Below, piece by piece: positions 1,008 through 34,298 of a stretch of 34,452 bases of DNA. The notes under the pieces are model-generated. The model was not told where the DNA came from and did no database searches. It worked only from the letters and a program-made list of their open reading frames with translations. Position 1 is the first letter of the stretch. The number at the start of each line of letters is the position of its first letter. A program made the position numbers and the translations under genes. This DNA is from Chrysochromulina tobinii (taxonomy: Eukaryota > Haptophyta > Prymnesiales > Chrysochromulinaceae), in assembly GCA_001275005.1 (NCBI GenBank), contig JWZX01001759.1:1-34452 (forward strand). Reading direction: 5' to 3'.

Positions 1008-3201
1008 ATGCCTCGCCCGATTTTTACTCCCGAGTACAAATGGGATACCCGGCGTCTGTCCGCACCCGTAGTGATGCCCGACGTTCACGTTCAATCTTCG
1101 CCGCCGCCGCAATCCAAACTCACGCCGGCACAAGCACGCTCAAAGCGCATCCTCGAGTCCTCGAGGCGACGCATGCCTGACAGTTCACTCGCCCCTCCCG
1201 TAGTCATGCCCGACGCGAATGTAGCCCAAGGCGTGTCGGCGAGACGGCTTCAGATGCAGAATGCCAGGGCAGCCCTCAAGGCAGTCGCGCAGCAAGACAA
1301 GGCCAAGGCCGAGAGTGAGGGTGCTACCGCGGGTTTTGCGGTAAGGAGTGACGCTGCTGCAAAGGAGGAGGAGATGCGGAAGGCCAAACAGGCCAAAGAG
1401 GAGCAAGCGAAGCGTGGGCGTGAGGAGGCTGCCGCCGCGCAAGCTGCGGGCAGGGTTGGCGCGGCCCAAAAGGCCGAGGAGGCGGCGCGAGCAAAGGAGG
1501 CTGCACGAGCAGGCGGCGCGGAGCAGGCGGCGCTCGAGCAGGAGCGGGCGCAGAAGCTCAAATCGGCCAACGCGAGCTTCGAGGCCGGGAGGCTTATGGT
1601 TAAGAAGGTAAAGTATCGGGAGGCGGAGGCGGCGTTCCGGACTGCGCTGCAGATCAGGTCAGAGGTGCTCGGTAAGCGCCACGAAGAGGTGCTCAAGGTT
1701 CAAACGGAGCTCGGCGAGGTGTGCATACGCCAAGACAACCACGTCGAGGCAGCGCGCCTCCTCCACGAGGTCTATGAGAGCTATCTAGCGGCCAAGGGCC
1801 AGGCGGATGTGATGACCCTCAAAGTGGTCCATTTGCTGGGCAACGCGCTCTCCGCCAGTGCGCGCTACGAGGAAGCCGAGACGCTCTTGAAGCTCACCAT
1901 CGACGCGTGCTCCTTGCAGTACGGCCCGAGTGCCAAGAATACGCTCGTTTTCAAGACGGGGCTCGGCTTGCTCTTTGACAAGCAGGATCGCCTCGAGGAC
2001 GCAGAGCCCTTGTTGCGTGAGGCTCTGGCGGCGCGCCGGAGGGCAGCCTTGGTGGCCGTTGTGAGCGGCACGCATGATGTGAACGACCTGTGCGCCTCGA
2101 TGGGCAGCCTCGCCGTGGTGCTCCAGAAAAGGAAGCAGCCTGGACCGCTCGCTGAGGCGGAGGCGCTCTATCGAGAGGCGCTCGAGCTCACGCGCAAGCA
2201 CGACGAGGGAAAGGAGAGTCGCACTTCCATTGGATTGATGAATAACTTGGCAGCGCTCCTCAAGCCCGAAGCGAGCCGCTCGGACGAGGTTGAGCAGCTC
2301 TTGCGGCAATGCATCAAGGCCGAGAAGGAGCTCTATGGACCGTCGAACGACGCGACTCTGAACACCACCGAGCAGCTCGCTTCGCTCCTGCATCACACCC
2401 GAGGCTTACACGCCCAGGCCGAGGAGCTGCTGCGCGACGTGCTTCAGGAACGTCGAGCCGCGCTCGGCCTGATGACCTCTGATGACCTCTGATGACGTCT
2501 GATGACGTCTGATGACATCTGATTGCCTCCCTCATCAGGAACGTCGAGCCGCGCTCGGCCTGATGACCTCTGATGACCTCTGATGACATCTGATGACGTC
2601 TGATTGCCTCCCTCATCAGGAACGTCGAGCCGCGCTCGGCCTGGGTCATGAGAGCACGATCACGACGATGGTGAACCTGGCGTCTGTCTTCCGTGCCATG
2701 GGCCAAACTCCGCAATCGGAAGCGCTGCTCAAGGAGGCGCACGAGGCAAGCCTAAAGGCGCTCGGCGCGGGGCATTACAAGACCAAGCTGATCGAAAGGG
2801 ACTTGACGGGCTTGGGCGCTGTTCCAAAAGGTACAGGAGGCTCCTTCGTGGCCAAAGGGTTCGACATGACGATTAAGACGCTCGGCGTGGCCTCGGGCTG
2901 GCAGGAACTCTTCGATAACTTCGACAATTCGGACGCGGGCCTGGAGGAGGCGTTTGCCAAGGTGGACACGGACACGAGCGGCAAGATCGACGCCAAAGAG
3001 TTGAAGGCGTACATCCAGAGCAAGTACAAGTCGAATGGCCTTGACGACAAGACCATCGAAATAATGATGGCGGCGGCGGACACGAACAAAGACGGCGAGA
3101 TTGACCTCGATGAGTTCAAGATGATCATGCGCGCTGGGGCTGGGCCAGGGGCTGGGCCAAGCGTGGAGACAGAAGAGGAGAGCTTCCGAGGCGGTTTGTA
3201 G
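1008..3201 (+). CDS. TPR (kinesin-light-chain type) protein with C-terminal EF-hand pair
   Basis: Two exons, 1008-2447 and 2620-3201, encode about 673 residues. Residues 1-90 are disordered and contain the motif APVVMPD / PPVVMPD twice. Residues 95-190 are an Ala/Glu/Lys/Arg-rich coiled coil. Residues 190-590 are 42-residue TPRs of the kinesin-light-chain type, with repeated patterns such as EAETLLK, DAEPLLREAL and QAEELLRDVL. The C-terminus has two canonical EF-hand loops, DTDTSGKIDAKE (about 596-607) and DTNKDGEIDLDE (about 634-645). TPRs usually bind protein partners and EF-hands bind Ca2+, so a Ca2+-responsive scaffold is the likely role. The exon join is set by TPR periodicity, because the repeat spanning the splice has exactly the normal A-E-x-L-L to G-x-x-H spacing. 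The intron is unusual (see its entry). The ATG at 1008 was chosen because the upstream frame has only GTG/TTG starts. Confidence 0.8.
2448..2619 (+). repeat. repeat-array intron in the TPR/EF-hand gene, with duplicated exon segment
   Basis: This 172-bp intron is made of two near-identical units, each an exon-derived 27-nt segment followed by 10-nt repeats (CTGATGACCT and variants) and a terminal CCCTCATCAG box (2529-2538 and 2610-2619). The 27-nt segment occurs three times, at 2445-2471, 2536-2562 and 2617-2643; the last is the real start of exon 2. The two arrays differ by one unit. The join that keeps the TPR intact is CAG|GAACGT...CATCAG|GAACGT, which implies a GA donor. A GT-AG alternative (GAC|GTGCTT) also keeps frame but deletes three TPR residues. 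Confidence 0.75.
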
Positions 3202-3664
3202 GCGCGAGCGGCGAGGCGCCGGCCATGGTTGGTACCCAGCGTACGCACCAGCGCCCTGCCCGGGTCAGTGTGTGTCCACACCGCACTCCGCACACGACTA
3301 ACGCACAACCTTATTGCTTATAGGATTTTTATCGGCCGGGGATCGTGCTAACTGCTATGCTCGACTTATCGTTAGAAAAATGTCGTTTCTCTGGGATGCA
3401 TCTTTGTACACTTCTGATTCTTAAGAATCGGGTTGTTGAACCGGACGGGACTCGGGAGCGCGACCGAGCTCCTCCAGCGGTAGACAGCGGGTGTTCCCGC
3501 ACCCTTTTCGGAAATAAGGCTGAAAATGAGACCGGGCTTCAAGTTTCTAAAGAAGACGTTTCGTGGCGGCATCGCGTCGTCAAGAGCTCCAAGTCAGGTC
3601 AAGGTTTGGCTTGACTTGACTTGACGACTCCTCATCTGTACTTTACAAAAAAGGTCCGCTGACA
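3202..3664. other. intergenic region, TPR/EF-hand 3' flank and BCD1 promoter
   Basis: Positions 3300-3430 are clearly AT-richer than their surroundings and include the palindromic core ATTCTTAAGAAT near 3417-3428. A small open frame at 3345-3614 has no recognisable protein character. The last 60 bases hold the CTTGACTTGAC motif described separately. I see no RNA gene. Confidence 0.5.
3610..3625 (+). promoter_or_regulatory. CTTGACTTGAC upstream motif of BCD1
   Basis: The sequence CTTGACTTGACTTGAC (three TTGAC steps) lies 40-55 nt upstream of the BCD1 ATG. The same core occurs in the same orientation upstream of the sulfotransferase-like, CDK11-like and PDZ-IQ genes. Its role as a core-promoter or 5'-UTR element is inferred from this recurrence only. 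Confidence 0.45.
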
Positions 3665-4648
3665 ATGGACGGCGACGACGTCGCCTCGAAGGCGGCGGAA
3701 GAGGAGCCTCCTCCGCCGGCCCGACCCCCGGTCGCTCGCTGCGCGTGCGGCGAGCCCGCCAAATACCGCTGCCCCGCATGCGACACGCGTTCGTGCTCCG
3801 CCGCGTGCGTCGACTTGCATAAGCAAAACCGGCCTTGCACGGGCAAGCGCAATGTGGCTGAGTACCACGCGATTGGCGAGTTTGACGATCTCGTGGTGCA
3901 TCGCGATTACCAGTTCTTGGAAGACGTGGGGCGTGCCGTCGACAGCAGCAAGCGCGTGCGCCGCGATGTGGAGCCGGCCGAGGGCCGGCGTGGATATTCT
4001 CTGCCACCCGCCCGGCACCAGCTGCTGCAGCGCGCGCTCGAGCGGGGCGTCCATTTGGAGCTGCTGCCGCACGGTATGCAGCGGCAGCGTGAGAACACGT
4101 CGCGCTATGATGCCCGCCGGCGGCACATCTGCTGGCGCGTCGAGCTCGACTTTGGCGTCGCGGGTGTGCGGCACATCTTGCCAAGCGTGGTGGACAGCAC
4201 GACGCTGCGCGAGCTGCTGCGAGACCTTATCGGGCTGAGTGGGGAGCCGAGCGGCAGCACGGGCGCGGAGCATGCGGGCAACAGCGTCAGCGCCAGCAAT
4301 GGTGGCGGCGGCGGCGGTGTTGCCGCCGCCGGCGATGCGAGCACGAACCCTAGCGCAGCTACAGCACCTGCGGCAGCGCCAGCGGCGCCGTCGCACCGAC
4401 GCGACGGCGGGCAGCGCGCGGTGCTGCGCCACAAGCTGCGAGCGTACGCGGCGGCGGGCGAGAAGCAGCTGGTGGTCTTCATGGCCGTGCCCCACCGGCG
4501 CGGCGCAGCCGACGAGCGCTTCTACAGCCTGCCGCTCGTCGCCACGCTGCTCGACGCGCTGCACGGCAAGACGCTGATCGAGTTCCCAACGTTGCACGTG
4601 GCGATTCGCGATGGGTCGGAGAAGCAGCGCTTCCCGACGGTGGGCTGA
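3665..4648 (+). CDS. BCD1: HIT-type zinc-finger protein, box C/D snoRNA assembly factor BCD1/ZNHIT6-like
   Basis: This is a single exon of 327 residues starting at an ATG 40 nt after the promoter motif. Residues 24-60 form a HIT zinc finger. The ligands run C26/C28, C36-P-A-C39, C44-S-A-A-C48, H52-K and C58, the usual HIT order. The finger is followed directly by the BCD1-typical block YHAIGEFDDLVVHRDYQFLEDVGR, cited here as residues about 65-90 with key residues D-Y-x-F-L-E-D-V. In yeast and human, BCD1 (ZNHIT6) helps assemble box C/D snoRNPs in the nucleus. The middle (about 195-245) is a Gly/Ala/Ser-rich low-complexity linker absent from the family core. The C-terminal part (about 250-315, with RAVLRHKLRAYA and FYSLP) fits the less conserved BCD1 tail. 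The finger plus adjacent block make the family call fairly safe. Confidence 0.85.
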   Translation: MDGDDVASKAAEEEPPPPARPPVARCACGEPAKYRCPACDTRSCSAACVDLHKQNRPCTGKRNVAEYHAIGEFDDLVVHRDYQFLEDVGRAVDSSKRVRRDVEPAEGRRGYSLPPARHQLLQRALERGVHLELLPHGMQRQRENTSRYDARRRHICWRVELDFGVAGVRHILPSVVDSTTLRELLRDLIGLSGEPSGSTGAEHAGNSVSASNGGGGGGVAAAGDASTNPSAATAPAAAPAAPSHRRDGGQRAVLRHKLRAYAAAGEKQLVVFMAVPHRRGAADERFYSLPLVATLLDALHGKTLIEFPTLHVAIRDGSEKQRFPTVG

Positions 4649-4683
4649 TCCCGCGGTCTGCATGGGGCTGCAGATCGTGGTGT

Positions 4684-4720
4684 GCCCTTTTTTTTCTTTT
4701 TTTTTTTTTACTTGACTTGA
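4684..4720 (+). promoter_or_regulatory. poly-T tract plus CTTGACTTGA motif upstream of the sulfotransferase-like gene
   Basis: A T-rich run (about 4687-4709, interrupted by one C) is followed at once by ACTTGACTTGA (4710-4720), 72-82 nt before the ATG at 4792. The poly-T could instead belong to the 3' end of BCD1. The motif core is shared with three other genes in the window. Confidence 0.45.
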
Positions 4721-4791
4721 GAGGCTTCACAATCACAGCTTTTAAAGAATCTCCTTTTTTGGGCCTTCTTGTGGTCTTCTTGAACTCCGAA

Positions 4792-5730
4792 ATGGGCCGT
4801 GTGTTGATGCTCCTTGCGGCAAGGACCTTGGCGGCGGCGTTTACAAGCTTTCACACTACAGCGTTGGTAGCGGCGCCGGAGTGGCACGGCATAGGGCTGC
4901 ATGGCCTGCTGAGCGCGCAGGAGGCCGCTCCAGATGCACCGTTGATGCTCTTTGACCGGCATCTCGAGAAGAATGGGGGCTTCTCGATGCACACGGCCAT
5001 GCAGAATTCTGTGGCTTCAGCCGGCTCCAAGCTCAACTGCACCAAACTCTTTGGCTACCAGATCAATAACAAGGACTGGGTCGAGATGGCGTCGTTGCTC
5101 ACGCAGAAGCAGAGCATCTGCGTGGACGGGCACTCGCCGGTCCCGTCGGACTGGCTGCAGCGCGCGCGCGCTGTCGCGTCCGAGGTGGCGGCAACGGGCA
5201 CGACACCGCGCGTGCTGACGACGCTGCGCATCCGCAAACCGACAGATCATTACCGCTCCTTTTATGACTGGGATCAGGTGCCGCGCATGAACCAGAAGTG
5301 GGCGACGAACGTGAGCCTGATCGAATTCATCATGATGACGCCCGACCTGCAGGCCTCGACGTTGCTCGAAAGCAACCGGGCGGTGCTCGCGCAGCACCGC
5401 AAGGGCGCGACCGAGCCGCTCAGCGCGAGCGAGTGCGCGGCGGCGCTCGAGACCGCGGCAGACGTCGACCTGCTCACAACGACGGAGGCCATGACGGAGA
5501 TGTGGCCTGTGCTGCGCCGGCTGACGGAGTTCGCGCTACCCGAGGAGCACATCCACGAGGGGCCGAAGCGCTTTGGCTGCTGCGGCCCGGCCGTCTCGCT
5601 CCTCGTCGATAAGGTCGAGCAGGCGACGCGCACGATGGCGCCCTGCGACTGGATGCTGTATGAGATGGCGCAGCGTGCCACCAGCAAGCTGCTCGACGAG
5701 TGGAGGACACTCTCTGATGCTAAAGAGTAG
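4792..5730 (+). CDS. sulfotransferase-like type II membrane protein
   Basis: This is a single exon of 312 residues. The frame is open upstream to a TTG at 4717, but the first ATG (4792) gives a good signal-anchor: MGRVLMLLAARTLAAAF, residues 1-25. Residues 53-66 (FDRHLEKNGGFSMH) resemble the PAPS 5'-phosphosulfate loop of Golgi carbohydrate sulfotransferases (the H-x-x-K-x-G-G type). Residues about 144-160 (TLRIRKPTDHYRSFYDW) resemble the 3'-phosphate-binding R-x-P-x-x-x-Y-x-S segment. Two cysteines follow in KRFGCCGP (about 260). The likely role is transfer of sulfate from PAPS to a glycan or other acceptor in the Golgi lumen. The acceptor cannot be inferred. Overall similarity is limited to the two cofactor motifs, so the call is moderate. 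Confidence 0.6.
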   Translation: MGRVLMLLAARTLAAAFTSFHTTALVAAPEWHGIGLHGLLSAQEAAPDAPLMLFDRHLEKNGGFSMHTAMQNSVASAGSKLNCTKLFGYQINNKDWVEMASLLTQKQSICVDGHSPVPSDWLQRARAVASEVAATGTTPRVLTTLRIRKPTDHYRSFYDWDQVPRMNQKWATNVSLIEFIMMTPDLQASTLLESNRAVLAQHRKGATEPLSASECAAALETAADVDLLTTTEAMTEMWPVLRRLTEFALPEEHIHEGPKRFGCCGPAVSLLVDKVEQATRTMAPCDWMLYEMAQRATSKLLDEWRTLSDAKE

Positions 5731-6170
5731 TGAGCGGCAGAGCCGTGTACATGTAGAGAGTAGAGTTTAGAGAGTGGCAACCGTGCAACTAATTGTATTA
5801 AAGCGCTATAGGCGCGGCGGCTACACCGCAACCGCATCGTACTCCTTCGTACTCCATCGTACCGCTAGTCGCTCCTGGCAACCATCCGTGTCGCGCCAAT
5901 CGGACGTGTGAAATCCCACAGAAATAAGCCCTCCGCCCACGTGCTGGCCTCTTTCGGGCGGACGGGGTCAACAGTGGCTTGCGCAGCTGGAACGCGGCCG
6001 GAGAGCATACGCTGCACACGTGCACAGAGCCACAGACAGTCAGAAAAAGCCCGCCACACGCATGCGCGTAGGAGCCCCGAACCACGCAGATTGCGTCACC
6101 GGGCGCGCAGTGGACCGCCCGGCTGCCGGCGGTGAGCGGCCGCGCATCATTGAGCACGTCCACGGAAGAC
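5731..6170. other. convergent intergenic region
   Basis: This is the shared 3' flank of the sulfotransferase-like and FNTB genes. Near 5750-5770 there is a short imperfect repeat of GTAGAGAGTAGAG type. Around 5830-5870 the phrase CGTACTCC(T/A)TCGTA is repeated. I see no gene or clear polyadenylation signal. Confidence 0.4.
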
Positions 6171-15301: not shown

Positions 15302-18300
15302 TCACCTCATCCGCACCGCGGGGAAACGCAGCAGGGACTCGGAGGCAGCTGAGTCGCGATCCGAGCCGCGGCTCGAGTCCGAATCACAAGATAGGCGCGA
15401 CGAGCGCAGAGAGTGCAGCGAGTCGCGGATCGAGTGACGAAGCGAGGTGCGGATCTCCGGCGACGAGTACTCGAGCGTAAGCGCCTCGAACTGCTCGTTC
15501 ATCTCGACCGAGAGCGGCTTGCGCAGCGGTGAGAGCACGGGTGCCTCGAGGGTGTACTTGGTGTCGAAGTTGGACACGTCGCTCGTCGGGTCGGCGGCAT
15601 TCAGCGTGGGCACAAACGGCGCCTCAAGCTTCCCGAGCATCAGCAGCTTCCAGTTCAGGTTGCGGAAAAAGGGGTGTGTCTTGAGGGAGGCAAAGTCGGA
15701 CTGACACGTGGGCGACTCTTCTCGGACACCGAGCCGCTGGGCGGGGTCCTTGGTGAGAAGCCCTTTGATGAGCCCCTTGGCCTCATTCGTGAACCAAGAG
15801 GGCAGCCGCAGCTTCGTGTGCACGATCTTGCGCTGCAGCTCCTTCTGCTCCTTGTGCCACCACGGCGCCTCGCCCGTCATCATCTCGTAGAGCAGCACAC
15901 CTGATGAGGGAGGCAATCAGAGGTCATCAGAGGTCATCACACCTGATGAGGCGTCATCAGCTCGTAGAGCAGCACACACCGAGCGACCACACGTCTCATC
16001 AGAGGTCATCAGAGGTCATCAGAGGTCATCAGAGGTCATCAGAGGTCATCAGCACACACCGAGCGACCACACGTCCACCGCCTGGCCACAAAGCATGCGC
16101 CGCAGCACCTCGGGCGCCATGTACTCGGTCGTGCCAACCAGCACAGGCCGGCCTGAGGCGGACGTGTGCGTGGCGGAAGCGGTCAGCCCAACGGCTGCGA
16201 GCCCGAAGTCACAGAGCTTCGCGTTCCCGTCGGCGCAGATGAGCACATTCTCCGGCTTGAGGTCGCGGTAGATGATGCTCTGCGCATGCAAGTGCTCGAG
16301 CGCGAGCATCACCTGCCAAATGAGGGAGGTCATTAGGGAGGTCATTAGGGAGGTCATTAGGGAGGTCATTAGGGGGGGTCATTAGGGTAGCCATGAGGGT
16401 GCTCGAGCGTCGTGACGATCACCTCGGCGGCATAGAAGCGCGCCATCTTCTCCGAGAACATCTCATGCGCCCTCAGGTGCGCGAAGAGCATGCCGCCCGG
16501 CACGTACTCCATCACGAAGTGCAGCTTGGACGCGCTCTGGAAGGCACATTCGAGCCCGAGGATGAACGGGTGGCGCGCCTCGGCATGCTGGCGCAGGATG
16601 CTCAGCTCGATCGCAATATTCTCCATCGAACGATAGCGCTCAATGGACGCCTTATCGACCACCTTCATCGCATAGATCTGGTGGTTGAGGTGGCAGCGTA
16701 CTTGGAAGACCTTGCCGTAGCCTCCCTTGCCCACGAGCCGCAGTAGCACAAAGTCGTCCATGGAGAGCGTGCGCATGCTTGCCGTCTCCGCCAGCTCGAG
16801 CTCCTCCACGAGCGCGTCCACCGCCTCCGCCGCCGCCGCCGCCGCCACACGTGCCAAAAAGTCCCCATCGAGCGGCGACGCGAGGTGCTCACCATGGCGC
16901 TCGTTGGCGTCGCTCCTTACGCTGCCCGCCGCCGCCTCCTCCGCCGCCTCCGCCGCCTCCGCCTCCTCCGCCTCCTCCGCCTCCTCCGGCGCCGAGATCG
17001 ACCGCAGCAGCGCGGCGAGGGCCGCCGTGAGCTCTGCCGCTGCCGCTGCGGCATGCGCCCCATCGTACCGCGGCAACTCGCCGCTGATCAGCGAGCGACT
17101 CGACGGCGGCACGATGATCTTGAGCACGACGGGGGGGCTCGGCGGCGTCGTTGCGGGCGGCGTCGTCGCCGCGCTCGCGCCGGCGTCGTTCTCGTCAGGC
17201 ATCATCGAAGTGTCTGGATCGGCCAGATTGAGCGTCGTCGCGGGCGTCGTCGTCGTGGGCGCCGCAGTGCCCGTCGGCACCGCAAGCTCGTCTGTGACCG
17301 TGGCGCTGAGTGGTGGGCGCAGGCCGGTGGCAGCAGCAGCGGACGTTGAGGCGCCGACGGCGGGCGCGCTGCGCTGGGCACCTGGTGGCGGAGCGCCGTG
17401 CTGGGCGGCGGGAGGCAGCTTCATCGAGTGTGGGAAGTTGTGCGGCGGAGAGTGCCGAGGGTGAGGGGTGTCAGGACCGTGCAACGGCTCCCTGATCTCG
17501 TCTTCGATATCATCGTGTAAGGGCTCCCTGATCTCATCGTCGTGCGCCGCCTCGATCGACATATGCACCGGATCCGATGCTGCCCACGACGGCGCGGCCG
17601 CGCTGCCGGCCGCTGCCCACGACGGCGCCATGGGAGCCGCGACGGCGCCAGTGCCGGTGGATGCTGCAGCAGGGGTGGGTGGTGTGACCGAGGAGGAGGT
17701 CGAAGAGGCGGGCGTGGGTGTGGCCGAGGAGGCGAGGAAGGAGGAGGCCGAGGAGGAGGTGGAGATGGCTGTAGTGCTCGACGCGGCGCTCATGCGCAGC
17801 ATCGAGGAGACGGAGGCTGCCTCGAGCCCCCCGCTACCCGCCTTGGCCCCCGGCGAGAGAGGGCCGCTGCTCGCTGTGGGCGGCGGCCGGCTATGTAGAA
17901 GCGATCCATGGCTAAGGGTGGCGGGGAGGGCATCGAGGTGACGCAGCTCTCCCAATGCGGTGGCAGCCGCGCTGCTCTGCTGCTTGATCTTCTGTGCCGA
18001 GGACTTGAACTGATACAGCCGATCCAGCATTGCCTGGCCCTCATCCGCCGATGCGCCCGCGACGGCGCCGGCGCCGCGTCCGCCGCCGCCGCCGCTGGCG
18101 CCCACGCCGGCGCCGGCGCGTCCCCCCCAGGCCCCCGCAGGGGGCTGCTTGCGCCACGTGGCGTCGGGCGACGCGCCGGCGGCACTGGCGCCGAGGCTGC
18201 TCCCCCACGCGCTCGGCTTGGGCGTGGACGTGCTGAGTGGGTGCGCCTCCTCCTCCTCGCGCGATTCGCGCGGCGCCACGTGTACGGTCTCGACCGTTGG

Positions 18301-20172
18301 TGCCCGCCACGGCGCGTGCATGGCCGAGGCGGCCGCGGAGGCCGAGGCGGCCGCGGAGGCCGCGGAGGCCTGCGGTGCGCCCGGCTCGGCGGGCATCGTC
18401 AAATCCGCCTCCTCCCACGAGGCCACGGAGACGGTCGACATGCGGTTGCTCGGTCGGCCTGATGGGCGGGCCGAGGGCTGCAGCGAGCGAGCGTCCGGCG
18501 CCGTCGTGGGCACCGGCGCGGCGGACGGAGCGGCTGAAAGAGGCGGCGCGGGGGGCGCAGGTGGAGCTGGTGGCGCAGATGGAGCTGGTGGCGAAGGCGG
18601 AGCTGGCGGCGGTGGAGCTGGCGGCGGTGGAGCTGGCGGCGGTGGAGGCGGAGGAGCGGCGGAGGGCGGGCCGTCGGCGCCAGCTGCGGCTGCGGAGGCG
18701 GCTGCGGAGGCGGCTGCGGGGGCAGCTGCGGAGGCGTCTGCGGGGGCAGCTGCGGAGGCGTCTGCGGGGGGCCATCGCCCCTCGTCATCACGAGCCATCT
18801 GGCGCTGCAGCGTGGCCAGCTCGTACTCGAGCTGCGGAATCGAGAGCACCTGATGAGGGAAGCCATCGGAGGTCATCAGTGAGGCAATCAGAGGCAATCA
18901 GCTCATACTCGAGCTGTGGAACTGAGAGCACCTTGGCCTGTAGGGCCTCGGTCAATCAGAGGCAATCACATGCAATCAGAGGCAATCACATGCAATCATA
19001 GGCAATCAGCGGTCATCAGTGAGGTAATCAGAGACCATCAGAGGCCATCAGAGGCCATCAGAGGCCATCAGAGGCCATCAGTACCTTGGCCTGTTGGGCT
19101 TCGTTGAGAGGTTTGCCATCAGCGTGCTCCTGCTGCACCGCGAGGGCCTGCCGGAGCTTCTTGAGGATCGCTCGCTCGCGCTTCTCCGCCTCGCTCTTGG
19201 CACTGCTCGTGGCCTCGGCGGCCGGGGTGCCCGCTAGCTCGTACGAAACTGCCGCCTCGGCCATCGGCTGAGTCTCGGCAGACAGCGCGCCCTGCGCCTC
19301 TGCGGCCGCCTCTGCGGCCGCCCCTGCGGCCGCCTCGGCTGCCTCGGCCGCCTCCGCCGCCTCGGCCGCCTCCATCCTGGCTCGTAGCGCCGCCTTCTTC
19401 CTCTCCCGCGCGGCCGCCTTCGCAGCGGCCGCCTCATCGGCGCTCGCCTCGGCGCTCGTCACGGCGCTCGCCGCACTGCTCAGCACGGCGCTCGACTCGG
19501 CGCTCAGAACGGCGCTCGCATCGGCGCTCAGCACGGCGCTCGCCTCGGCGCTCAGCACGAGTTTAGTCACGGCGCTCGTCTCGCTGGCCGTGGCACGGCC
19601 CTCAGAAGATGGCGTGACAGCCCCCCCAGCTGCCCCGACGGGCAGTGCCGTGTCAGTGGCCTCGGCCGATGGTGGCGCCGCGGCCGCGGGCGGCGGCGTG
19701 GCCGCGGCCTTGGCGGCGGCCACGTCCTCAGCGGCCGCCTGCGCGGCCTCCAACTGCGCCTCCGCCGCCGCACGCTCCTCCTTGAGCTCTGCCTCGCTCG
19801 CAAGCTTCTGCAGCTGCTCCGCGGTGAGGGTCTTGGCCTCGAGGCTGCGTGGCGAGAGGCACATCGACCCGGAGGGCGTGAGTGGCATCCACTGGAACTC
19901 GCGATGGGCAGCTCCAGGCGGCAGCATGTGCGTTGCGGCGGCAGTGCTGACCTTCGGATTTCCTCAATCTGACGCAGCTTCTTCGTGAGCGCACGGATGC
20001 GCTTGTTCAGGGCTGTTACGGGATCGTCGATGGACTGCGCGAGACACAGCCGCGCTCTCAGGTCAGCAGCGGGAAGAGCGGACACGGTGCTGAGCATGAT
20101 GGGTACGTCGCGCGGGTCTGTGCAGCTCGTTTCACGCACCACCACAGCCGTGGATGGCCCCTCGGTTGCCAT
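15302..20172 (-). CDS. large AGC-family protein kinase with N-terminal helical hairpins
   Basis: Five exons (20172-19952, 19844-19085, 18849-16423, 16312-16060, 15900-15302) give about 1419 residues, and every junction keeps frame. The N-terminus carries two related helical segments: [16 protein letters not shown]...[11 protein letters not shown] and [16 protein letters not shown]...LNEAQQAK. Residues about 350-1000 are Ala/Pro/Ser-rich low complexity. The kinase domain (about 1027-1290) has [47 protein letters not shown] (activation-loop Thr) and [15 protein letters not shown]. The C-terminal tail has [14 protein letters not shown] and a hydrophobic-motif-like [10 protein letters not shown], as in AGC kinases of the S6K/Akt/PKC group. 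The substrate is unknown. The kinase function is safe, but the subfamily is not. The ATG at 20172 is the first reasonable one; an upstream exon is possible. Confidence 0.85.
15901..16059 (-). repeat. repeat-array intron of the AGC kinase (DVWSLG|VLLYE)
   Basis: The donor CTCG|GTGTGTG and acceptor CCCTCATCAG|GTGTGC join S-L-G to V-L-L. The array is sense CTGATGACCT, with at least five units at 15996-16050 and more near 15911-15940. Positions 15961-15995 are a copy of the joined exon ends: 17 nt identical to the start of the next exon and 16 nt identical to the end of the previous one, with 2 extra nt between them. Confidence 0.85.
16313..16422 (-). repeat. repeat-array intron of the AGC kinase (YAAE|VMLALEH)
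   Basis: The donor GCCGAG|GTGATC and acceptor TTGGCAG|GTGATG give A-A-E-V-M-L-A-L-E-H, ungapped against AGC kinases. The array has 12-nt units, sense CCTAATGACCTC. The first 32 nt of the intron resemble the start of the downstream exon, including an identical CGCTCGAGCAC. CCCTCAT is retained 7 nt before the acceptor CAG. Confidence 0.85.
18850..19084 (-). repeat. repeat-array intron of the AGC kinase (QQAK|VLSIPQ)
   Basis: The donor GCCAAG|GTACTG and acceptor CCCTCATCAG|GTGCTC join in frame. Two arrays (units CTGATGGCCT, CTGATTGCCT, TGATTGCATG) flank a 54-nt copy of the uninterrupted exon junction at 18900-18953, which differs from the real exons at about 8 positions. Confidence 0.85.
19845..19951 (-). 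other. 107-bp first intron of the AGC kinase
   Basis: The donor CCGAAG|GTCAGC and acceptor CCACGCAG|CCTCGAG join IEEIR to [11 protein letters not shown] in frame. It is a GT-AG intron without a tandem array. Confidence 0.75.
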
Positions 20173-24904: not shown

Positions 24905-27767
24905 TCAGAAGCCAGTGAAGAGCTCCGAGTCGGCGGGCTTGCACGGCTTCGCATCAGTGACGATTCTCTCCGCGGGCAGCCATTCGTACTTGGACGCATC
25001 GAAGAGGGGAGGCTTAAAGGCAGAGCCGCGCTGCGCATAGTCGGTCCAGTCGAAGCCCGATTTGGCATAAAAGGGGTGCTCCTTGATGTCCTTGCAGCCG
25101 TCGCGCAGGTTGCCATACCGCTTCGAGATATCCTTCTGGAGCAGCTTGGAGATCAGATCTGCCGCATCGATGTTCATCTCGGGCGGGTAGTGGACCGTGC
25201 CGTCGAGGATCTTTTGGTACGTCGCTAGGTGGTCCTCGGCCTCAAAGGGCGAGTGGCCGTTGAGCATCTCGTAGAAGAGAACGCCCATCGCCCAGTAGTC
25301 GACTGCCTTCGAGTGCCCCTTCTCGAGGATGATCTCGGGCGCGAGATACTCTGGTGTTCCACAGAGCGTCCACGAGCGGTACTTGATGACCTTCGCGAAG
25401 CCAAAGTCGGTCAGCTTGAGCGCGCCGTCCTGGGCGACCAGGATGTTCTCGAGCTTGAGGTCGCGGTGTACGATGCCCATACTGTGCATGTACTCGAGAG
25501 GAAGCATCACCTGCCGAGGGCGAGCGACCGCGGGCGGTAAGTGGGGGTTGTGTGTGTCTGTGTAGGGGTGGGGGTGGGGGGGAGGGCAGAGGGCGGAAGG
25601 CGCGTGCCTGCGACACGTAGATACGCGTGTCGGGGACGGAGAAGCGCTTGTGCTTATACAGCTGGTCGAACAGGTCGCCGCCCGGGCAGAACTCCATGAT
25701 GAGAATGAGGTTGGACGGGGTGACAAAGCCGGCCCACTTGTTGGTAACGAATGGATGCGCTATCCTGTCGAGGATCTGCGTCTCCTGCATAATGTGCTCC
25801 ACCTGGCCCATCGAGACAATGTCCGCCTTCTGCATCTGCTTGAGTGCAAAGACCTCGCCCGTGCTCCTCACGCGGCATCGGCGCACTGTACCGAACGCGC
25901 CTTCGCCGAGCGTCCCTTTGGTCACTGTGAAGTCACTCAGCGTCATCGGGCGCTGCGCCTTGATGTACTTGTGCTCGTTGGGCATCTCGACGCCTGCGCT
26001 CGCGCTGCCGGTGCTCTCCGCGTCCGCGTCGCTTGCCTGCTGCTGCAACTCGGCGCCGCTCGCAGTGTACTTGCGCATCGCGAGCAGTTCCCCCAGCGGC
26101 CCTAGAAGCCGTTGGAAGGCGCCGCGGTCCATACGCACGACGGTCGTGCCCGCGGCGGCGGCGGTCACTGACGCCATCGTGGGCGCCCCCGTCTTGAGTG
26201 ACAACTCTCCGAAGTAGTCTCCCTGATGAGGGATCACTCAGATGCAATCAGATGCAATCAGATGCAATCAGATGCAATCAGAGGAGACACGTTCGGAGCA
26301 TACCTCCCTGCGACGTGCGAGCTCGCCCTGGCCCGCCTTGGTGATCACCACCTCGCCTCGCGCGATCACATAAAAGTGGGTGCCTTCCTCGCCCTCGGTG
26401 ATGATCGCGTCATCCTGGGCGTAGGTGACCTCCTCGAGCGCATCCACCATGCGGTTGCGCTGGTCCTTGTCCAGCGGCGCGAGCAGTGGCACCTTTTCGA
26501 GGAACGATTCATAGCTCGCCGCCTTCTTCGTGTTCGCCTCGAGCACGATCGTGCGGAACGAGACGCGATCGAGCGACCATAGCACAACGGGAGTCGCCGC
26601 CTGGATCGTCGCCGTGCGCGGGCAATTGTACATGAGCGCGAGCTCCCCAAACGACTCGCCCGCCCGGAAGCCCCTGACGCGCACCGGGTGGCTGTCGGGA
26701 TCCTCCCCCTGCACAAACGCATCGAGCTCGCCACTGTCCACGATGAAGAAGTGGTTCCCCTTCTCGCCTTGCGTGATGACATTCTGACCGGGGTGTATTG
26801 TGTGCTCCATCATGGCCTCCTGCAGCATCGTCAGCTGCATCTCGTTGAGCCGCGAGAAGATGACGTTGCGACTCACCGCCCCCATGATGCGCGCTACCTG
26901 CTCCGTGGTCTTCTTCTTCCCAGATGCGACCTTGCCGGTCAAGACGCCTGTCGTCGCCTCCGCCGCCTCACCAAAGCGGCGGCCGCGCATCTTGCTGCCG
27001 GCCGGGGCGCCCTCAGCCTTGAGCGCGAGCTGCTGCTGACCCGCCTCCCGCACGAACGCATGCAACGGCACCAGCTTCAAGAAATCCTCCTTTCGGAACG
27101 TGGCGCACCACACCGCCGTCTCCGCGCGGCGTGTCTCCTGGTGCTTCGAGTTCTGCAGAAGCTCGACGTGCCCAAAGTAGGCCTGCCGGCCGTACTTGGT
27201 GCTCTCGGCTGGGCCGCCCGCGACCGCGACCACCGTGCCTTCACGCACGACGAAGAACTTATTGTCGCCCGGTGTGCCGACCTCGTGCATCGTGGCGCCT
27301 GCCGCGTAGCGCACCTCGCGGCACGCGTCGGCGAGCAGCCCAAGCTCGTAGTCTTCGGAGAGCTCGGCGAAGATTGGAAGCAGCCTGAGAAAGGGGACCC
27401 ACTCGGCGCGCTTCTTGACGATCTTGTCGCCGAGCGCTGCATTGAACGCGCGCCGATTCACCATGAGCAGAGTCACCTCCGGCGAGGTCGCCATGATGCT
27501 CGCGCTGCGCGGCTTGCCGGTCAGCAGCGAAAGCTCACCGCACCACGAGCCGGCGGTGAGGGAGCGGACGTTGCGCCGCTCACCCGCGCTGTCCGCCATC
27601 CACACGTCGCACGTGCCGCTCTTGATCAGGTAGAAATTGTTGCCCTTGTCCCCTTGCCGCATGATGACCTCCTGTTGCTTCACCTGGACCTCTGCCATCG
27701 AGTCGACGAAGCCTCTCCGCTCCTCGTCGGTGTCCATGTAATTGTGCAGCAGCGCACAAGGTGGCAT
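24905..27767 (-). CDS. PKG: cGMP-dependent protein kinase with four cyclic-nucleotide-binding domains
   Basis: Three exons, 27767-26304, 26222-25608 and 25510-24905, give about 894 residues. Four cyclic-nucleotide-binding domains precede the kinase, as in alveolate and algal PKGs. Their phosphate-binding cassettes are GELSLLTGKPRSAS (78-90, intact), GHVELLQNSKHQETRRAE (199-216, degenerate), GELALMYNCPRTAT (374-387, intact; Thr after Arg suits cGMP) and GELSLKTGAPTMAS (493-506, the Arg replaced). The kinase domain (about 586-845) has GEGAFG, FALKQM, HRDLKLEN, DFGFAK and the activation loop WTLCGTPEYLAPE. The C-terminus ends in an AGC tail with FTGF. The role is cGMP-controlled Ser/Thr phosphorylation in the cytosol or at membranes. 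The frame is open upstream to 27845 without ATG, so an extra 5' exon is possible. The gene is divergent from the FkbM/exostosin gene. Confidence 0.88.
25511..25607 (-). other. 97-bp GC-AG intron of PKG
   Basis: The join TCGCAG|GCACGC...CTCGGCAG|GTGATG gives R-I-Y-V-S-Q-V-M-L-P-L-E-Y-M-H, with no gap against other AGC kinases. The donor is therefore GC. A GT alternative two codons upstream would delete V-S-Q from the helix before the catalytic loop. The intron is pyrimidine-rich in the sense strand. Confidence 0.75.
26223..26303 (-). repeat. repeat-array intron of PKG (ARRRE|GDYFGEL)
   Basis: The donor AGGGAG|GTATGC and acceptor CCCTCATCAG|GGAGAC join in frame within the fourth nucleotide-binding domain. 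The array has four 10-nt units of sense CTGATTGCAT followed by CTGAGTGATCC and the shared terminal box. It is the shortest member (81 bp). Confidence 0.85.
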
Positions 27768-28223
27768 GACCTCGAACGAGCCCGCCGCCGACTTGAGTTG
27801 CCTGAGATTCCAGCAGCGCAGGTGCGCGCAGAGGCGTGAGAGCAAAGGAAGAAAGCGCAGACGAATGGTGAAGCGGCCTCAGGACGTCAAGGCGCGCCGG
27901 GTTCAAGAGGCAGGGGAGGAGCGTACGGTCGCTCATACGTCTTCTGGCCGCTAGCAGGCGCAGCCGTGGGCATCGGCACAGGCAGTCGCAGGCCGGTCCG
28001 CGGCCGTGAAGAGAGGAAAGTGCAGTCGCGATCGGCAAACTTGTTACCGGTATCCAAGCCGAGCGCACGAAGAAAATAGTCTCAGCTATGGCATCGCGTC
28101 ATCCCGGCACCTAGCGGTGCTTTTCAACGGTGGGGAGTCGGGACACAAAACGGTAAGCGCGCGGCACGGCCGCGACATGAAAGCGTCTTCGAGTCTCGGC
28201 CGTGCCCTTTTTCTCCCGCGAGC
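27768..28223. promoter_or_regulatory. divergent region between PKG and the FkbM/exostosin gene
   Basis: These 456 bp include the extension of the PKG frame to 27845 (no ATG), which ends near a candidate acceptor TCTCAG|GCAACT. A non-coding or coding first exon of PKG could therefore lie here. No motif shared with the other promoters was seen. Confidence 0.35.
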
Positions 28224-30440
28224 ATGTCCGACGACGTGTGTTCGCAGACCTCCGCCGCCTTCTGGGCGCAGGGTGGCCCTCGCACAACGCAGTGCATAGG
28301 CGCAGCAGCCCTGGAGCAGTTTGCTGCCATCTCCTTGCGGAAAGAGGCTGGTGGTGCAGGCAGACATTGTCTGCCTGCGGGCAGTGCGGCACTCGTGATC
28401 GGTGGCAACAAAGGCGACGACTGTGCGGGATGGGCCCGGCTGCTATCCGGTGACGACACCCTGAATGCATCCGCTTGGCGTGCAGAGTTGCTTCGGCATA
28501 TTACTGGCAAAGTCGACGCGTCGGTGCGCAAAATCGGCACGAGTGCATGCATTGGCGAGTATCCGCTCGCACGACAAAGTGCGGTGCGAGCCCACGTGTT
28601 TTGTGTCGAGGCCCTGCCAGCAAACTCCCGCATCCTTGGAGCAGCTGTCAGAGCCGCGCCGTGGAGCAGCTACATGACGACGATCGCAGCCGCTGCCGTT
28701 TCCCCGACTCAAAAGATGGCAAGTGGCACGGTGCCGTTTCCGAACTGGGAAGTCTTTGGATTCGAGAGCATCGGACTCGGCTCGCGACCGGGCATACCTG
28801 ACGCGCAGGTGGAAGCCGTCACCGCAGATGATCTCGTTCGCTCACACATGAGTGGATTCACACCCGCTGTGCTCACGGTAGACACGGAGGGCAATGATCC
28901 TGAGGTGCTGCTTGGGTCGACGCAGCTGCTCGCGTCGGGGAGTGTGGGGTTTTTGCAGTTTGAGGTTCACAGCCAAGGCGCTTGGCGAAGCCATTTGCTC
29001 CGCGACACCATTGGCATGCTGGACAACCATAGCTACACGTGCTTCTGGGCTACCCAATCTGGAGCTCTCTACCGGATCACGGGCTGCTGGGAGCCCCGCT
29101 ATGACCAACGCAAGATCTGGAGCAATATCGTTTGCGCGAATCGCCGTTCCGCATGCTGGACCGAAGCACTTGAGCGTGCTGCCTACAGGCCCAACGCGCG
29201 CGCTACGCGGCAGCCACGCTCACTCAACGAGGTTGCACCCGATGAGTGGGCGAAGTCTCAGAAAATCGATTCGGACGATCCGACGAGGGCGCATCAAGAG
29301 CCGCCAGTAGGATCGACGCAAAATGTATCGGCGTTGGGCAACCTGAGCACGCTGCTTCACGGATCGACGCTCGCCAACCTCTCGACAGAGTGCTGTGCGG
29401 ATGGGAGGGTGCTCATGCAGCAGACGAGAGCGTGGCTGTCAGTTCCCTCGAGCTCCAATCGACCTGTGTTTGAGACTTGCTTGCAAGGCAGAAAATGGCC
29501 TCTCGGCCCCACGGAAAGACGTATATTTCATGAAGCGCTTCAGCATCGATGCCATTGGGTCAACGGGCTGGATTCGAGCGTTGCATGGGTTGTTCTTGAC
29601 TGCGGTGGCTACGGCCACAGTCAGCCGCCAGGGCGACGGCACGACAACGGTTCGCTGGCACGCTGTGCACCTGCTCACGTGAGTGTCGCGTGCGTGACCT
29701 GCTCAAAGCCGGATTTGCGTCCTGGAATCGACATGGGCTTCCCACCCATATCGTGGGGGACGAAGACCCTTGCGGCTTTGCGACCGAATTCGACGCAGGA
29801 TGTCGAACAGCGGTGCCTCTTCAACTACGAGCACCGCTTTGAGCGGTACCCGCTCGCCACATTTCGAGGCTCGTTCGCAAGCCGGTTTAGCCGTCATACC
29901 TATCCATATGACGGGTATAAGCGTACTTTGGGGCATTGGTTGCTCAACATGAGCAGGCACAATGTGAGCGTGCCGGGATGGGGCCACATACAGGTGTCGT
30001 TTACAGACTTCAAAGACAAGGCACCGGCGGCGATGGAGGGTGCGAAGACGCTTTGCACGAACTCGTACGAGGAAGACTTTCTGAAGAGCCAGTTCATCCT
30101 CGCGCCACGTGGGACCAATCTTTACTCGATGCGAGCCTTTGAGGCCATGTCTATGGGCGTGATCCCCATCATCATCTCGGATGATTGGGTCTTGCCATTC
30201 GAGGACGTCATCAACTGGTCGCAAGTCTCGGTGCGGCTGTCTGAGCTCGAGCTTGAGTCGTTACCTGCCAAACTTGCGTCGATGACCATCGAGCGAGTCT
30301 GCCAGATGCGCAAAAATGCGTTTGAGGCCTACCGCCGGTACCTGGAATCGCCGGCAGCATGGGAAGCTGGGATTGCAAGTTCTCTGGCCGCGAGGAGGAG
30401 GAGCAGCGCCGGTCCCACGCCGCCGTCTGACGGGCCGTAA
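28224..30440 (+). CDS. FkbM-type methyltransferase fused to exostosin-like glycosyltransferase
   Basis: This is a single exon of 738 residues from ATG 28224. The N-terminal half resembles FkbM methyltransferases: a Gly-rich SAM loop at VIGGNKGDD (about 58-66), VEALPANSRIL in place of the E-P-x-x-x-N motif (about 128-138), and LTVDTEGNDPEVLLGS (about 217-232) matching the D-x-E-G-x-E segment, then FLQFEVH. The C-terminal half resembles exostosin (GT47): ATFRGSF, FILAPRGTNLYSMRAFEAMSMGVIPIIISDDWVLPFE cited as about 625-661, and VINWSQVSVR. GT47 enzymes transfer sugars from nucleotide donors in the Golgi, and FkbM enzymes O-methylate hydroxyls, so a bifunctional glycan-building and methylating protein is plausible. 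The first 20 residues show no signal peptide or anchor, which is odd for a Golgi enzyme; an upstream exon may be missing. Confidence 0.78.
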   Translation: MSDDVCSQTSAAFWAQGGPRTTQCIGAAALEQFAAISLRKEAGGAGRHCLPAGSAALVIGGNKGDDCAGWARLLSGDDTLNASAWRAELLRHITGKVDASVRKIGTSACIGEYPLARQSAVRAHVFCVEALPANSRILGAAVRAAPWSSYMTTIAAAAVSPTQKMASGTVPFPNWEVFGFESIGLGSRPGIPDAQVEAVTADDLVRSHMSGFTPAVLTVDTEGNDPEVLLGSTQLLASGSVGFLQFEVHSQGAWRSHLLRDTIGMLDNHSYTCFWATQSGALYRITGCWEPRYDQRKIWSNIVCANRRSACWTEALERAAYRPNARATRQPRSLNEVAPDEWAKSQKIDSDDPTRAHQEPPVGSTQNVSALGNLSTLLHGSTLANLSTECCADGRVLMQQTRAWLSVPSSSNRPVFETCLQGRKWPLGPTERRIFHEALQHRCHWVNGLDSSVAWVVLDCGGYGHSQPPGRRHDNGSLARCAPAHVSVACVTCSKPDLRPGIDMGFPPISWGTKTLAALRPNSTQDVEQRCLFNYEHRFERYPLATFRGSFASRFSRHTYPYDGYKRTLGHWLLNMSRHNVSVPGWGHIQVSFTDFKDKAPAAMEGAKTLCTNSYEEDFLKSQFILAPRGTNLYSMRAFEAMSMGVIPIIISDDWVLPFEDVINWSQVSVRLSELELESLPAKLASMTIERVCQMRKNAFEAYRRYLESPAAWEAGIASSLAARRRSSAGPTPPSDGP

Positions 30441-30948
30441 CGAAACCTACCGGCACGATTGAAAGAATCCTGACTGCACGTCTCAAGCACAACGTACGTA
30501 GCGATAAGCCTGCGGATGCTGCGAGCTGCCTGACGTTGCGCAAGCCGCCAGCAGTGGGCGAGGCCTCGATGTCCTTTCGGAGTAGAGCTAGAGGATCCTC
30601 CGAGTGTCTAGAGCTGTCTTGTTATTCGAAGGGCAATACCAATAGGGCGCGTTAGGCGCGACGCCCATCGCGACTAGCCGCTACCGCTAGCCCTACAGTA
30701 CGCGCTAAGTATGGTACTCGGTCCATCGACCGCACCCGACTCCTACGTTGTTGGTGGTACGACGGTTCCCGGTTCGCCGATACATTACAGCTCGCGGGCT
30801 GTGCTACGGTACTACATCACCGCCTGCGAGTGCAGCTCGAGCTGGACTCTCAGCCGCCGTGTTGAGCCTCTGTAGCCGGCGTCGACAGGCGGGGCCACTT
30901 GCGCAAGCTGCTCAGACTGAGTGCAACCAAAGATCAGCCAGATTCGCG
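30441..30948. other. convergent intergenic region
   Basis: These 508 bp lie between the FkbM/exostosin and WD40 stops. There is a CTACCGCTAGCCCTA-like stretch (about 30680-30695) and short GTACGA repeats, but no gene. Confidence 0.4.
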
Positions 30949-33900
30949 CTAATCGCGCAACGTCCACACCCGAATCGTCTCGTCGAGCGAGCCTGAACAC
31001 GGGCGCCCCTCGTGCACGACGAGGCTGTACAGACCCCCTCGATGGCCCGCGAGCACGCGCAGTCGCTCGTACGTGCCCAGATGCCACACGATGCAGGTCT
31101 TGTCCGAGGAGGCGGAGAAGAGCCGTTGCCGGTGCGCGTCGGCTGCGAGCGCGCACACGAAGCTGCGGTGGCCGGCCAGTGTGGCTTGTTGCTCGAGGGA
31201 TGCGAAGTCCCAGACGCGAATGAGCCGATCGCCGCCGCCGGAGAGCAAGCGCAAGCCGGCGGCCGAGCCGGCGGGCGATGGCGGCGACGGCGGCGACGGC
31301 ACGAGCAACAGAGCGTAGACAGCGCCGTCGTGGGCGATCGGTTCGAGGCGGCCCCGTGCACGGAGTGTGTACAGAGGCGCAAGGGTGCGAGCGTCCCACA
31401 CACGAATGGTCGCATCGGCGGAGGCCGAGACGAAGCGCTCAGTCGCGTAGATGACGATCGCATGGATCTCGGCCTCGTGAGCCTCCTTGGCGAGGTGTGT
31501 CAGGGTGATGCTCGGGCGGACCATCGCCGAAGCACCTAGCCCGAGCCCACCTGCCCTGCCTGCCCTGCCTGCCGGGTGGACCGCCGCCGAAGCGTCCTGC
31601 AACGTCGCGGGCGATGGATCGGGCGCGGGATAGGGCGCCACGCTGGGCGGTGCATGCGGAGATTGGATCTCGAGCCGCGGAGATTGGAGCTCGAGCCGGA
31701 GCTCGAGCCGGCTGATCCCGCAGTCTGCGGAGCCGCAATACACTGGGCCGTCGGGAGTGGCCGCGCTGGCGCACAGCACGCTAGCCGCGTGCACCGTGCA
31801 CCTCTGCATGCACTCCCAGCGCCCAGAGCCACCTTCAGGTGGGCGCCACAGCTGAACTGTCCCGTTGGCAAGCCCGGCCAGGAGCACGCCGCGCAGCGGT
31901 AAGAGGGCGAAGACTGTCGTGTCGTCAGCCGCATCCGCCTCGACGGATCGAGCAACAGCGGGCCGTGGCTCGAGTGCCAGGGCAGCCTGAGCAGCGCAGT
32001 CGAGCTCGACTACCAACCGCCATGCCGCACGCGCCCCAGCTGCCTCCGCCTTAGCACCCTGCGCTGCCGCCGGCGCGCTCCGCTCCGTCTCCGCCGACGC
32101 TCCCTCGGCGGACTCTCGATGCTCCTCCTGCCAGATGCTCACCTTGCCATCCGCGCCACCTGAGAGCAAAATGGGGTTGCTGCTGTCGGCGGGTGTCAAT
32201 GCCGGTCTACCCAGGGCCGCGTCGGCGGTGGCGAGGGACCAGACGCAGCCACGATGGGCAGAGAGAACCTCCGTCGTCGGCTCTTCTGCCAGGTCCTGAG
32301 CGCCTGGGCGAACCGGGACGCGGTGAAGCGCCAGCGCACCGTCCACGCTCCCGGAGAGTAGCTGCGTCGCTGCCCGGCCGGTGCGCCGGGTTGGATGATG
32401 AAGAGGAGCGGCTATGAGCGATAGGATGCCGGAGGAGTGAGCAGCACAGCGGACGACCGGTAGGCTCGGTAGGCTCGGTGGGAGGGAGGTGGCGGAGGCG
32501 GCGGAGCCGGCGGAAGCGGCGCATTGGACGGCCGCCGCCGCATCCCAACACAAGAGTTCGCCGCGTCCGCCCGCTCCATGCAACCACCCCTCCGCATCGG
32601 CCGCCAGTGCACAGACGGAGCCCTCGCCGCTAGTCAGCTGGCCGACTGCCCTTCGCCCCGGCACGTCCCAAAGCACAACGTGCCCCTGTGCATCGGCCGA
32701 GGCGAGCTGGAACGTGCCCGCGAGCGGCGTGCACCCAGTCCTCGCGGGGTCGCCTGCTGCGGCTGCGGCGCCATCGTCCAGCACGGGTGGTAAGAGCGCT
32801 GCCAGAGCAAAGACCGACGCACGATGCATGCTCGGGTCGAGCGTTGCCACCGCGCTCAGATCGGCGCGATTCCACAGACGCACGCGATGGTCCGCCCCGG
32901 CGGTGACGACGAGGGACGACGCGGCGAAGGCGAGAGCGTAGACACCACCGCCCTGCTCGGTCACGTGCACGCGCGCCGTTGGCAGCATCGAGCCGCCTGC
33001 GAGACCGAGCACCGGAAGCGGGCGGACGGACCATCGCAACAATTCGCCTTTCGCATCTGCAGAGAAGAGAACCGACGCGGCGGCATCGGCGGCAGCGGCG
33101 GCGGCACCAGCTTCTGCGTACGCTCCGCTGGCGCAGGCACAGCAGAGCACGCTCCCCGTGTGGCCCATGAGCGCCACGATGGCGCGGAACCGCATGAGGT
33201 CCCAAATGCGTATCGATCCATCGGCGGAGGCGGAGACTAGCTGGCCTGAGGGGGTGAGCGTCAGAGCGTGCACCTGCTCGAGGAGTGCCTTCCGATGAGG
33301 GCCGCAATCAGAGGCCATCACATGCAATCACATGCAATCAGAGGCCATCAGAGCGTGAGAGCGCGCACCGCATCCGTGTGGCCGCGAAGCGTCGCCACCT
33401 GCTCGGCCATCGCGGGCACTTGAGCGGGCGCGGCCGCCGCTGCTGTGCCATCTAAAACGGCTCCTGCGGCCACGTAACCACCATGGCCGGCCACGTAACC
33501 ACCGTCGCCGACCACGCGGCTGCCCACGCTGCCAGCTGCGCCACCGACCACACCGCCGACCGCGCCATCGCCTGCGCCGGCCAGGTCGGTGGCGAGTCGC
33601 GGTACGCATGCATCCGGAGTCCAACGGCAGAGGCGGATCTCGCCATTGCCGCCGCCGCATGCAAGCGTGTGGTCTGGCAGCATCAACATGGACCAGACGC
33701 ACGTGCCGTGCGGCTGGATCTGGCACGGCGCCGTGCCGAGCGCCACGTACCCAGGCGCCTGCGCGCCCGCCACGGCGCCCGTTGCGTTCGACTCTTCGCT
33801 GACGGCGCCTGCCACGGCGCCATCTCCCGCGATCTGGCCGCCGGAGGCCGCCGCACCAGTTGCGGATCCTCCCGAGATCGGAGCTCGGGTTTCGGCAGCC

Positions 33901-34247: not shown

Positions 34248-34298
<51 letters not shown>

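Follow-up and report, generated by a model that had tools for sequence, protein, structure and literature searches.

Introner-like elements in Chrysochromulina tobinii: candidate intron-generating insertions with a tandem-array body between direct repeats of exon

Here we describe a family of introns in the haptophyte Chrysochromulina tobinii, starting from a stretch of 34,452 nucleotides (nt) that makes up positions 1–34452 of contig JWZX01001759.1 (C782 in our numbering; hereafter the window). In the window, six introns of four genes consist mainly of short tandem units with a TGAT or TAAT core, and related arrays recur across the genome. These introns probably arose when a small, repeated element that generates introns was inserted; the element resembles known introners and differs in having a tandem array for a body and target duplications that are long and variable. 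What is new is the anatomy, in which direct repeats of exon surround a tandem array and a 3′ splice module; the copies of exon inside the introns were missed in an earlier note on this DNA. The bulk origin of new spliceosomal introns is an open question, and this genome provides one family with many insertions, apparently of different ages. The target copy, the element and the 3′ module can be distinguished at single-base resolution, which allows insertion, the recruitment of splice sites and decay to be followed directly.

Exact pattern matches over the 53.15-Mb, 2,253-contig assembly indicate the size of the family. The two-unit pattern CTGATKRCMTCTGATKRC occurs 5,592 times against one reversed match, and the 20-mer CTGATTGCCTCCCTCATCAG occurs 643 times with none reversed. 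A genome search for a unit followed by the terminal box, proposed in the earlier note, gave 1,404 exact copies of unit plus CCCTCATCAG, spread over many contigs, and no reversed copy. The bases that follow these 1,404 boxes are GT in 938, GC in 210, GA in 46, GG in 39 (by difference) and not G in 171, the ranking one would expect if they double as the 5′ splice site of the upstream copy. Arrays were sampled from the window and from the opening 10 kb of each of 20 contigs picked at steps of 100 (234 kb in total), with at least three units per array and the identical sequences reversed as control; this yielded 48 arrays and none in the control. The step from unit to unit is exactly 10 nt in 102 of 167 cases. 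Their spread is uneven, with 16 of the 48 arrays in one 10-kb stretch and eight in another (L034 and L041), and some genes seem to have been invaded repeatedly. On inspection, a pair of arrays in L045 and a single one at L049 4913 turned out to be look-alikes. Removing these three left 45 arrays, and without the L045 pair 12 of the 20 sampled stretches held none.

Nearly all sampled arrays share one orientation relative to nearby coding sequence. Strands were called for the 48 arrays with a codon-usage model that was seeded with the window genes and retrained on the strong windows of all stretches; it also calls coding in 738 of 1,921 random windows. Initially 42 arrays were called sense, two antisense and three mixed, with one left without a call. 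The look-alikes comprised one of the sense calls and both antisense calls, so the inspected set holds 41 sense, three mixed and one uncalled array (n = 45), with none called antisense. Coding sequence at distances of up to about 600 nt entered these calls, which hence express agreement with the nearest coding sequence, not the gene membership of each array. The three mixed arrays all lie in the window (18860, 18960 and 33302), where downstream-frame Pfam hits and frame agreement back the strand, and all six window introns carry their arrays in sense, as the earlier note had said. A plain microsatellite or minisatellite would be expected to be indifferent to orientation, which the 45 arrays are not. 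Since the arrays are clustered, forming only 21 clusters in nine of the 21 stretches (window included), fewer independent events lie behind the orientation count.

All six window segments described in the earlier note are present as described (Table 1). Read along the gene, they are built mainly of units of about 10 nt of the CTGATNNCNN type, except that 16313–16422 has 12-nt CTAAT units. The note's further statement that they end in or near a common box, four of them with the box at the predicted 3′ splice site, is also borne out: the exact CCCTCATCAG ends 2448–2619, 15901–16059, 18850–19084 and 26223–26303, one further intron ends in CCCTCATTTGGCAG, and 33274–33368 has a box-like CCCTCATCGG that lacks the AG, its apparent 3′ splice site lying 18 nt further downstream, as if splice-site use had shifted after decay of the box (33274–33301). 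By Pfam, the hosts are a TPR/EF-hand protein on the forward strand and, on the reverse strand, a protein kinase with Pkinase_C, in which three of the introns lie, a protein with both cNMP-binding and kinase domains, and a WD40 protein. The earlier note had called the host genes unrelated; a kinase domain is in fact common to two of them, but the intron positions are not. Shared ancestry fails to explain the family, because the intron of the cNMP gene sits at a different position, within its cNMP-binding domain.

Many arrays lie between imperfect direct repeats (DR) of exon, 16–37 nt long in the cleanest cases. We compared the 80 nt before each array with the 80 nt after it, with units masked, against mispaired flanks. 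Set against 1,864 mispaired comparisons, same-array pairs passed the 99th percentile in 29 of 48 arrays and the maximum in 17; the inverted comparison exceeded its 99th percentile in two of 48. By merged cluster, 16 of 21 exceeded the 99th percentile and 14 the maximum of 362 mispaired comparisons. To check this, we chose ten sites by hand, with their sequence unseen, from the first 100 listed places where unit, box and GT adjoin; eight of the ten exceeded the maximum of 90 mispaired comparisons, with aligned lengths of 12–29 nt, and in six the repeat begins immediately after the box. Repeats that directly abut array and box include, in the window, three identical 21-nt copies (2448–2640), a 30-nt pair (18902–18931 and 18820–18849) and a 17-nt pair (15961–15977 and 15884–15900), and elsewhere copies of 35 and 37 nt in C33, 16–17 nt in L038 and 29 nt in L053. 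Repeat length varies between loci, and the identity of the copies ranges from complete to clearly diverged, which suggests insertions of differing age. In most cases, as judged by eye, G or AG closes the exon ahead of the insertion and GT opens the upstream repeat. From the sequence, the arrangement is read as exon-G, GT-DR1, array, CCCTCATCAG and GT-DR2, where the exon resumes. An early idea that the insert always starts at the branch-point A (CTG/A), taken from a few junctions, was given up on finding other starts in L054 and L060.

At 2448–2619 in the window, two elements alternate with three identical 21-nt copies of exon, one between them and one on either side. In the kinase gene, the left flank of the first array (16050–16075) recurs in the internal copy of 15901–16059, and the 5′ part of 16313–16422 is similar to the downstream exon (GTGAT..GCTCGAGCAC). 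The repeat at 33351–33368 is borderline, with a per-array score of 14 against a 99th percentile of 13 and a per-cluster score of 14 that equals the threshold. At 26223–26303 an inverted exon copy had been noticed by eye; its inverted score of 12 lies below the inverted 99th percentile of 13, and it was discarded.

Removal of the segments makes protein domains continuous. With each segment removed, all six window joins are open over 179–200 residues, and a single Pfam domain runs unbroken across the junction in all five introns tested: TPR_12 at 2448–2619, Pkinase at both 15901–16059 and 16313–16422, cNMP_binding at 26223–26303 and a WD40 repeat at 33274–33368. The remaining intron, 18850–19084, lies in a low-complexity part of its protein without a domain, and its join is open with no stops. 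Both kinase junctions align without gaps to homologues, for example P0121, whose 413 amino acids fill a 1,292-bp contig. Twenty-two array introns from the window and other loci were hand-chosen, with boundaries set by us; their flanking frames agree in 18, where one third would be expected by chance, and the unspliced reading in the upstream frame meets 1–15 stops in every one. The exact box ends 14 of the 22, so that it is common without being universal. The most reproducible part of the element is a 3′ splice module of about 20 nt together with the long target duplications, not the array alone. U1 and U2 small nuclear RNA (snRNA) genes are present in the genome, with their usual pairing segments. 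Judged from these features, the element would be spliced as drawn, restoring the messenger RNA (mRNA).

Two of the twelve aligned kinase homologues, P0134 and P0138, have other inserts near the junctions. In P0138, non-homologous sequence follows directly after VLLYE, the end of the duplicated segment of the window kinase; in P0134, the insert precedes QAVDVW. Both resemble retained introns, lying in relatives at sites that are close by but not the same.

The way in which such an element might make an intron follows from its parts. Its body is a tandem array of branch-point-like units of about 10 nt (CTGATNNCNN), and the part that varies least is a complete 3′ splice module, in its typical form CTGATTGCCTCCCTCATCAG. 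Insertion would occur in coding exons, in sense and mostly at (A)G/GT, with duplication of about 16–37 nt of the target. The initial GT of the upstream copy (DR1) would become the 5′ splice site and the element would supply one or more branch points and the AG, with U1 recognising the target's own AG/GT and U2 one CTGAT unit; the exon would resume with the downstream copy (DR2), keeping the original mRNA. After insertion, arrays would lengthen and homogenise locally, and whole blocks of repeat, array and box could become tandem. Blocks of this kind are tandem in L034, L038, L043 and the window intron 2448–2619, and each internal box/GT could allow splicing in steps. Agreement averages 9.15 of 10 positions between neighbouring units and 7.68 of 10 between units from different loci, which argues that arrays homogenise in place; likewise, in 38 runs, neighbours share the last two unit bases in 67% of steps, where 19% would be expected. 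That the 8-nt unit core is conserved adds no independent evidence here, because the search pattern imposed that core.

Several observations weigh against this account. The predicted donor of 2448–2619 is GA, not GT, and this young-looking double insertion may therefore splice unusually or not at all. GT is absent after 466 of the 1,404 boxes (33%), and eight of the 22 hand-chosen introns do not end in the exact box. Among the 18 introns whose frames agree, one (C33a) contains a stop, and for several the coding scores are weak or negative; with the chosen boundaries, frames disagree in the other four (three in L034, one in L050), which may reflect wrongly chosen boundaries or real exceptions. 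As for the repeats, none was found at 26223–26303 in the merged-cluster comparison (score 7), five of the 21 clusters are not above the 99th percentile (L041 5945, L043 6688, L050 2413 and window 26242 and 33302, the last equal to it), and in two of the 16 passing clusters (L034 6407–6752 and L041 6312) the match lies mainly in array-like sequence that was incompletely masked. In L034, L041 and C29 the repeats include the end of the upstream exon and do not start at GT, which tandem duplication explains equally well. The 5′ end of the insert does not lie at one fixed position (L054, L060). Finally, a looser array rule, run without a control, gives opposite-strand hits in L034, L041 and L044, all of which fail the stricter rule.

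An origin without a mobile element, by tandem genomic duplication of AG/GT exon segments and independent growth of microsatellites under selection for branch points and an AG, appears unlikely. It would account for the tandem blocks of exon and array, for the locus-specific last two bases and closer likeness of neighbouring units, and for array introns that lack the box, and intron gain by tandem duplication has already been described (PMC4974935, in its available text). Set against it are the 643 exact 20-mers and 1,404 copies of unit plus box with none reversed, and also, by eye, a pair of ordinary introns, in L034 and L041, whose ends are plain CCCACAG with no such box. We infer that insertion, rather than exon duplication alone, made the repeats. 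The earlier note had argued that independent microsatellite growth would not yield the same terminal box and orientation; this stands insofar as a shared, spread family with a box exists, and it needs amending in that local array growth matters, probably after insertion. Even less credible, and very improbable, is the reading of the segments as coding minisatellites or assembly artefacts: the length is divisible by three in nine of the 22 hand-chosen introns, as a coding repeat might have it, but the stops met by all 22 unspliced readings, the domains made continuous at all five tested junctions and the occurrence across many contigs speak against it.

If insertion is accepted, its chemistry may still be read in more than one way. 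A non-autonomous DNA transposon with short terminal inverted repeats (CTGATGA...TCATCAG), moved by a transposase and followed later by array growth, has points in its favour, since the box and a CTGATGA unit are reverse complements along 7 nt, box and first unit pair in one predicted fold (window 2448–2538, z −3.0), and DNA transposition is said to be consistent with most published introners (PMC9860276, in part). We consider it quite improbable here: the direct repeats reach 37 nt and vary in length between loci, against published duplications of 3–9 bp in earlier introner families (PMC9860276) and 10–15 bp in miniature inverted-repeat transposable elements (MITEs; PMC7789003), as given in the available text of both, and the 5′ end is not fixed.

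Insertion of non-long-terminal-repeat (non-LTR) retrotransposons by target priming leaves a fixed 3′ end, a variable 5′ end and a target duplication of variable length. The box-ended copies likewise combine a fixed 3′ end with variable 5′ ends and duplications, but the element here consists of almost nothing except splice signal. Because the repeats are long and variable, the 3′ end coincides with the end of the excised intron and the 5′ end varies, target-primed reverse transcription, or staggered-break repair with copied filler, fits better than a cut-and-paste transposase. The fixed 3′ end could alternatively result from selection for an AG beside the repeat. A more specific and tentative possibility, doubtful as it is, has excised intron RNA copying itself back into genes, with a staggered nick in an exon priming reverse transcription that starts at the 3′ end of the element. 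Copying would then halt at variable points within the branch-point array, which would be splicing signal and copying product at once, and every insertion would remake an AG/GT donor, so that repeated insertion or block duplication would give introns removable in steps.

The closest known systems are the introners surveyed by Gozashti et al. 2022 (PMC9860276). As far as the available text of that survey describes them, they share with the C. tobinii family the many copies across genes, a 3′ splice site carried by the element, a 5′ splice site taken from the duplicated target and preservation of the mRNA. They differ in their duplication of 4 bp, against a variable 16–37 nt here, and here the body is a 10-nt tandem array and the 5′ end is specific to the locus. 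For inclusion in the survey, introns had to be similar near both splice boundaries, and low-complexity families, rich in short repetitive motifs, were taken out by hand. The survey asked for at least four similar introns in non-paralogous genes, and the C. tobinii family has six introns in four genes and 1,404 copies of unit plus box, but similarity is found near the 3′ boundary only, where the box is present, the 5′ end being a locus-specific exon copy, and the body is a tandem array of about 10 nt, of the kind that was removed. The array family would work like an introner but departs from the surveyed class in two of its criteria. The earlier note had called an array-based family a different kind of introner, and this is fair, because the main survey removed low-complexity families by hand (PMC9860276, in the text available). 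A survey that drops such families would drop an array family too, which is a possible blind spot. Among the literature matches listed, no title or abstract opening was on tandem-array introners.

Other comparisons rest on published descriptions. The introners of Chrysochromulina sp. TARA_PON_109_MAG_00232 (PMC9860276, compared by its available description) share the genus name and lie in short introns, but have 4-bp duplications, carry the 5′ splice site and take the 3′ one, the opposite arrangement. The introner elements of Amoebophrya (PMC7789003) also form many repeated introns with direct repeats at their borders; they differ in having inverted repeats of 8–20 nt, direct repeats of 3–5 nt and mostly non-canonical splice sites, and the available text of that paper reports no tandem body. 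In the potato RdRp gene, where an intron was gained by tandem genomic duplication (PMC4974935, in part), exon segments with splice signals are likewise present twice, whereas in C. tobinii the copies enclose, at many loci, an array and a 3′ module that are shared. Direct repeats at intron-exon borders were also taken as traces of insertion by Rogers and Bendich 2025 (PMC11782384); theirs, as the available text gives them, measure 4–30 bp (mean 11.4) in 213 introns of all kinds, against a single family with repeats of up to 37 nt here.

Table 1 Predicted array introns of the window and their parts (positions in the window).
Feature	Position	Strand	Details
Predicted intron, TPR/EF-hand gene	2448..2619	+	two tandem elements, each DR of 21 nt, array and CCCTCATCAG
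Direct repeat copy 1, GAACGTCGAGCCGCGCTCGGC	2448..2468	+	identical copies at 2539-2559 and 2620-2640
Array 1	2469..2528	+	six 10-nt units CTGATNNCNN
Terminal box CCCTCATCAG	2529..2538	+	
Direct repeat copy 2	2539..2559	+	
Array 2	2560..2609	+	five units
Terminal box and predicted 3′ splice site, CCCTCATCAG	2610..2619	+	
Direct repeat copy 3	2620..2640	+	start of downstream exon
Predicted intron, kinase gene	15901..16059	-	two arrays around a 36-nt exon-junction copy (15961-15996)
Terminal box CCCTCATCAG	15901..15910	-	
Second array of the 15901-16059 intron	15911..15960	-	
Internal direct repeat GTGTGCTGCTCTACGAG	15961..15977	-	17/17 identical to exon 15884-15900
First array of the 15901-16059 intron	16003..16052	-	five identical CTGATGACCT units
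Predicted intron, kinase gene	16313..16422	-	12-nt CTAAT units at 16327-16385; 3′ end CCCTCATTTGGCAG
Predicted intron, kinase gene	18850..19084	-	arrays 18960-19081 and 18860-18901; box 18850-18859
Internal 30-nt direct repeat of exon 18820-18849	18902..18931	-	
Predicted intron, cNMP-binding/kinase gene	26223..26303	-	array 26233-26281; box 26223-26232
Predicted intron, WD40 gene	33274..33368	-	array 33302-33351; box-like CCCTCATCGG 33292-33301
Direct repeat GTGCGCGCTCTCACGCTC	33351..33368	-	16/18 identical to exon 33256-33273

A 22-mer that includes the GT has no exact match in prokaryote genome contigs. Carriage by viruses was considered and dropped, as IMG/VR viral contigs contain no exact match to a 27-mer of units or to the 20-mer CTGATTGCCTCCCTCATCAG.

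Repeats of other kinds were noticed by eye in the sampled stretches. L009 (C29) has at about 650–830 a tandem repeat, GGCCATCCGTGGATCCTCGGGTCAAATCTCGGGACAAATCTC, in three copies and a part, which is apparently coding and unlike the intron arrays, and in L052 short, irregular repeats of the GCTCGACA type lie at about 1000–1400, on the 3′ side of the U1 snRNA gene. Near the end of the window there is a perfect (GCC)16 run at 34248–34295.

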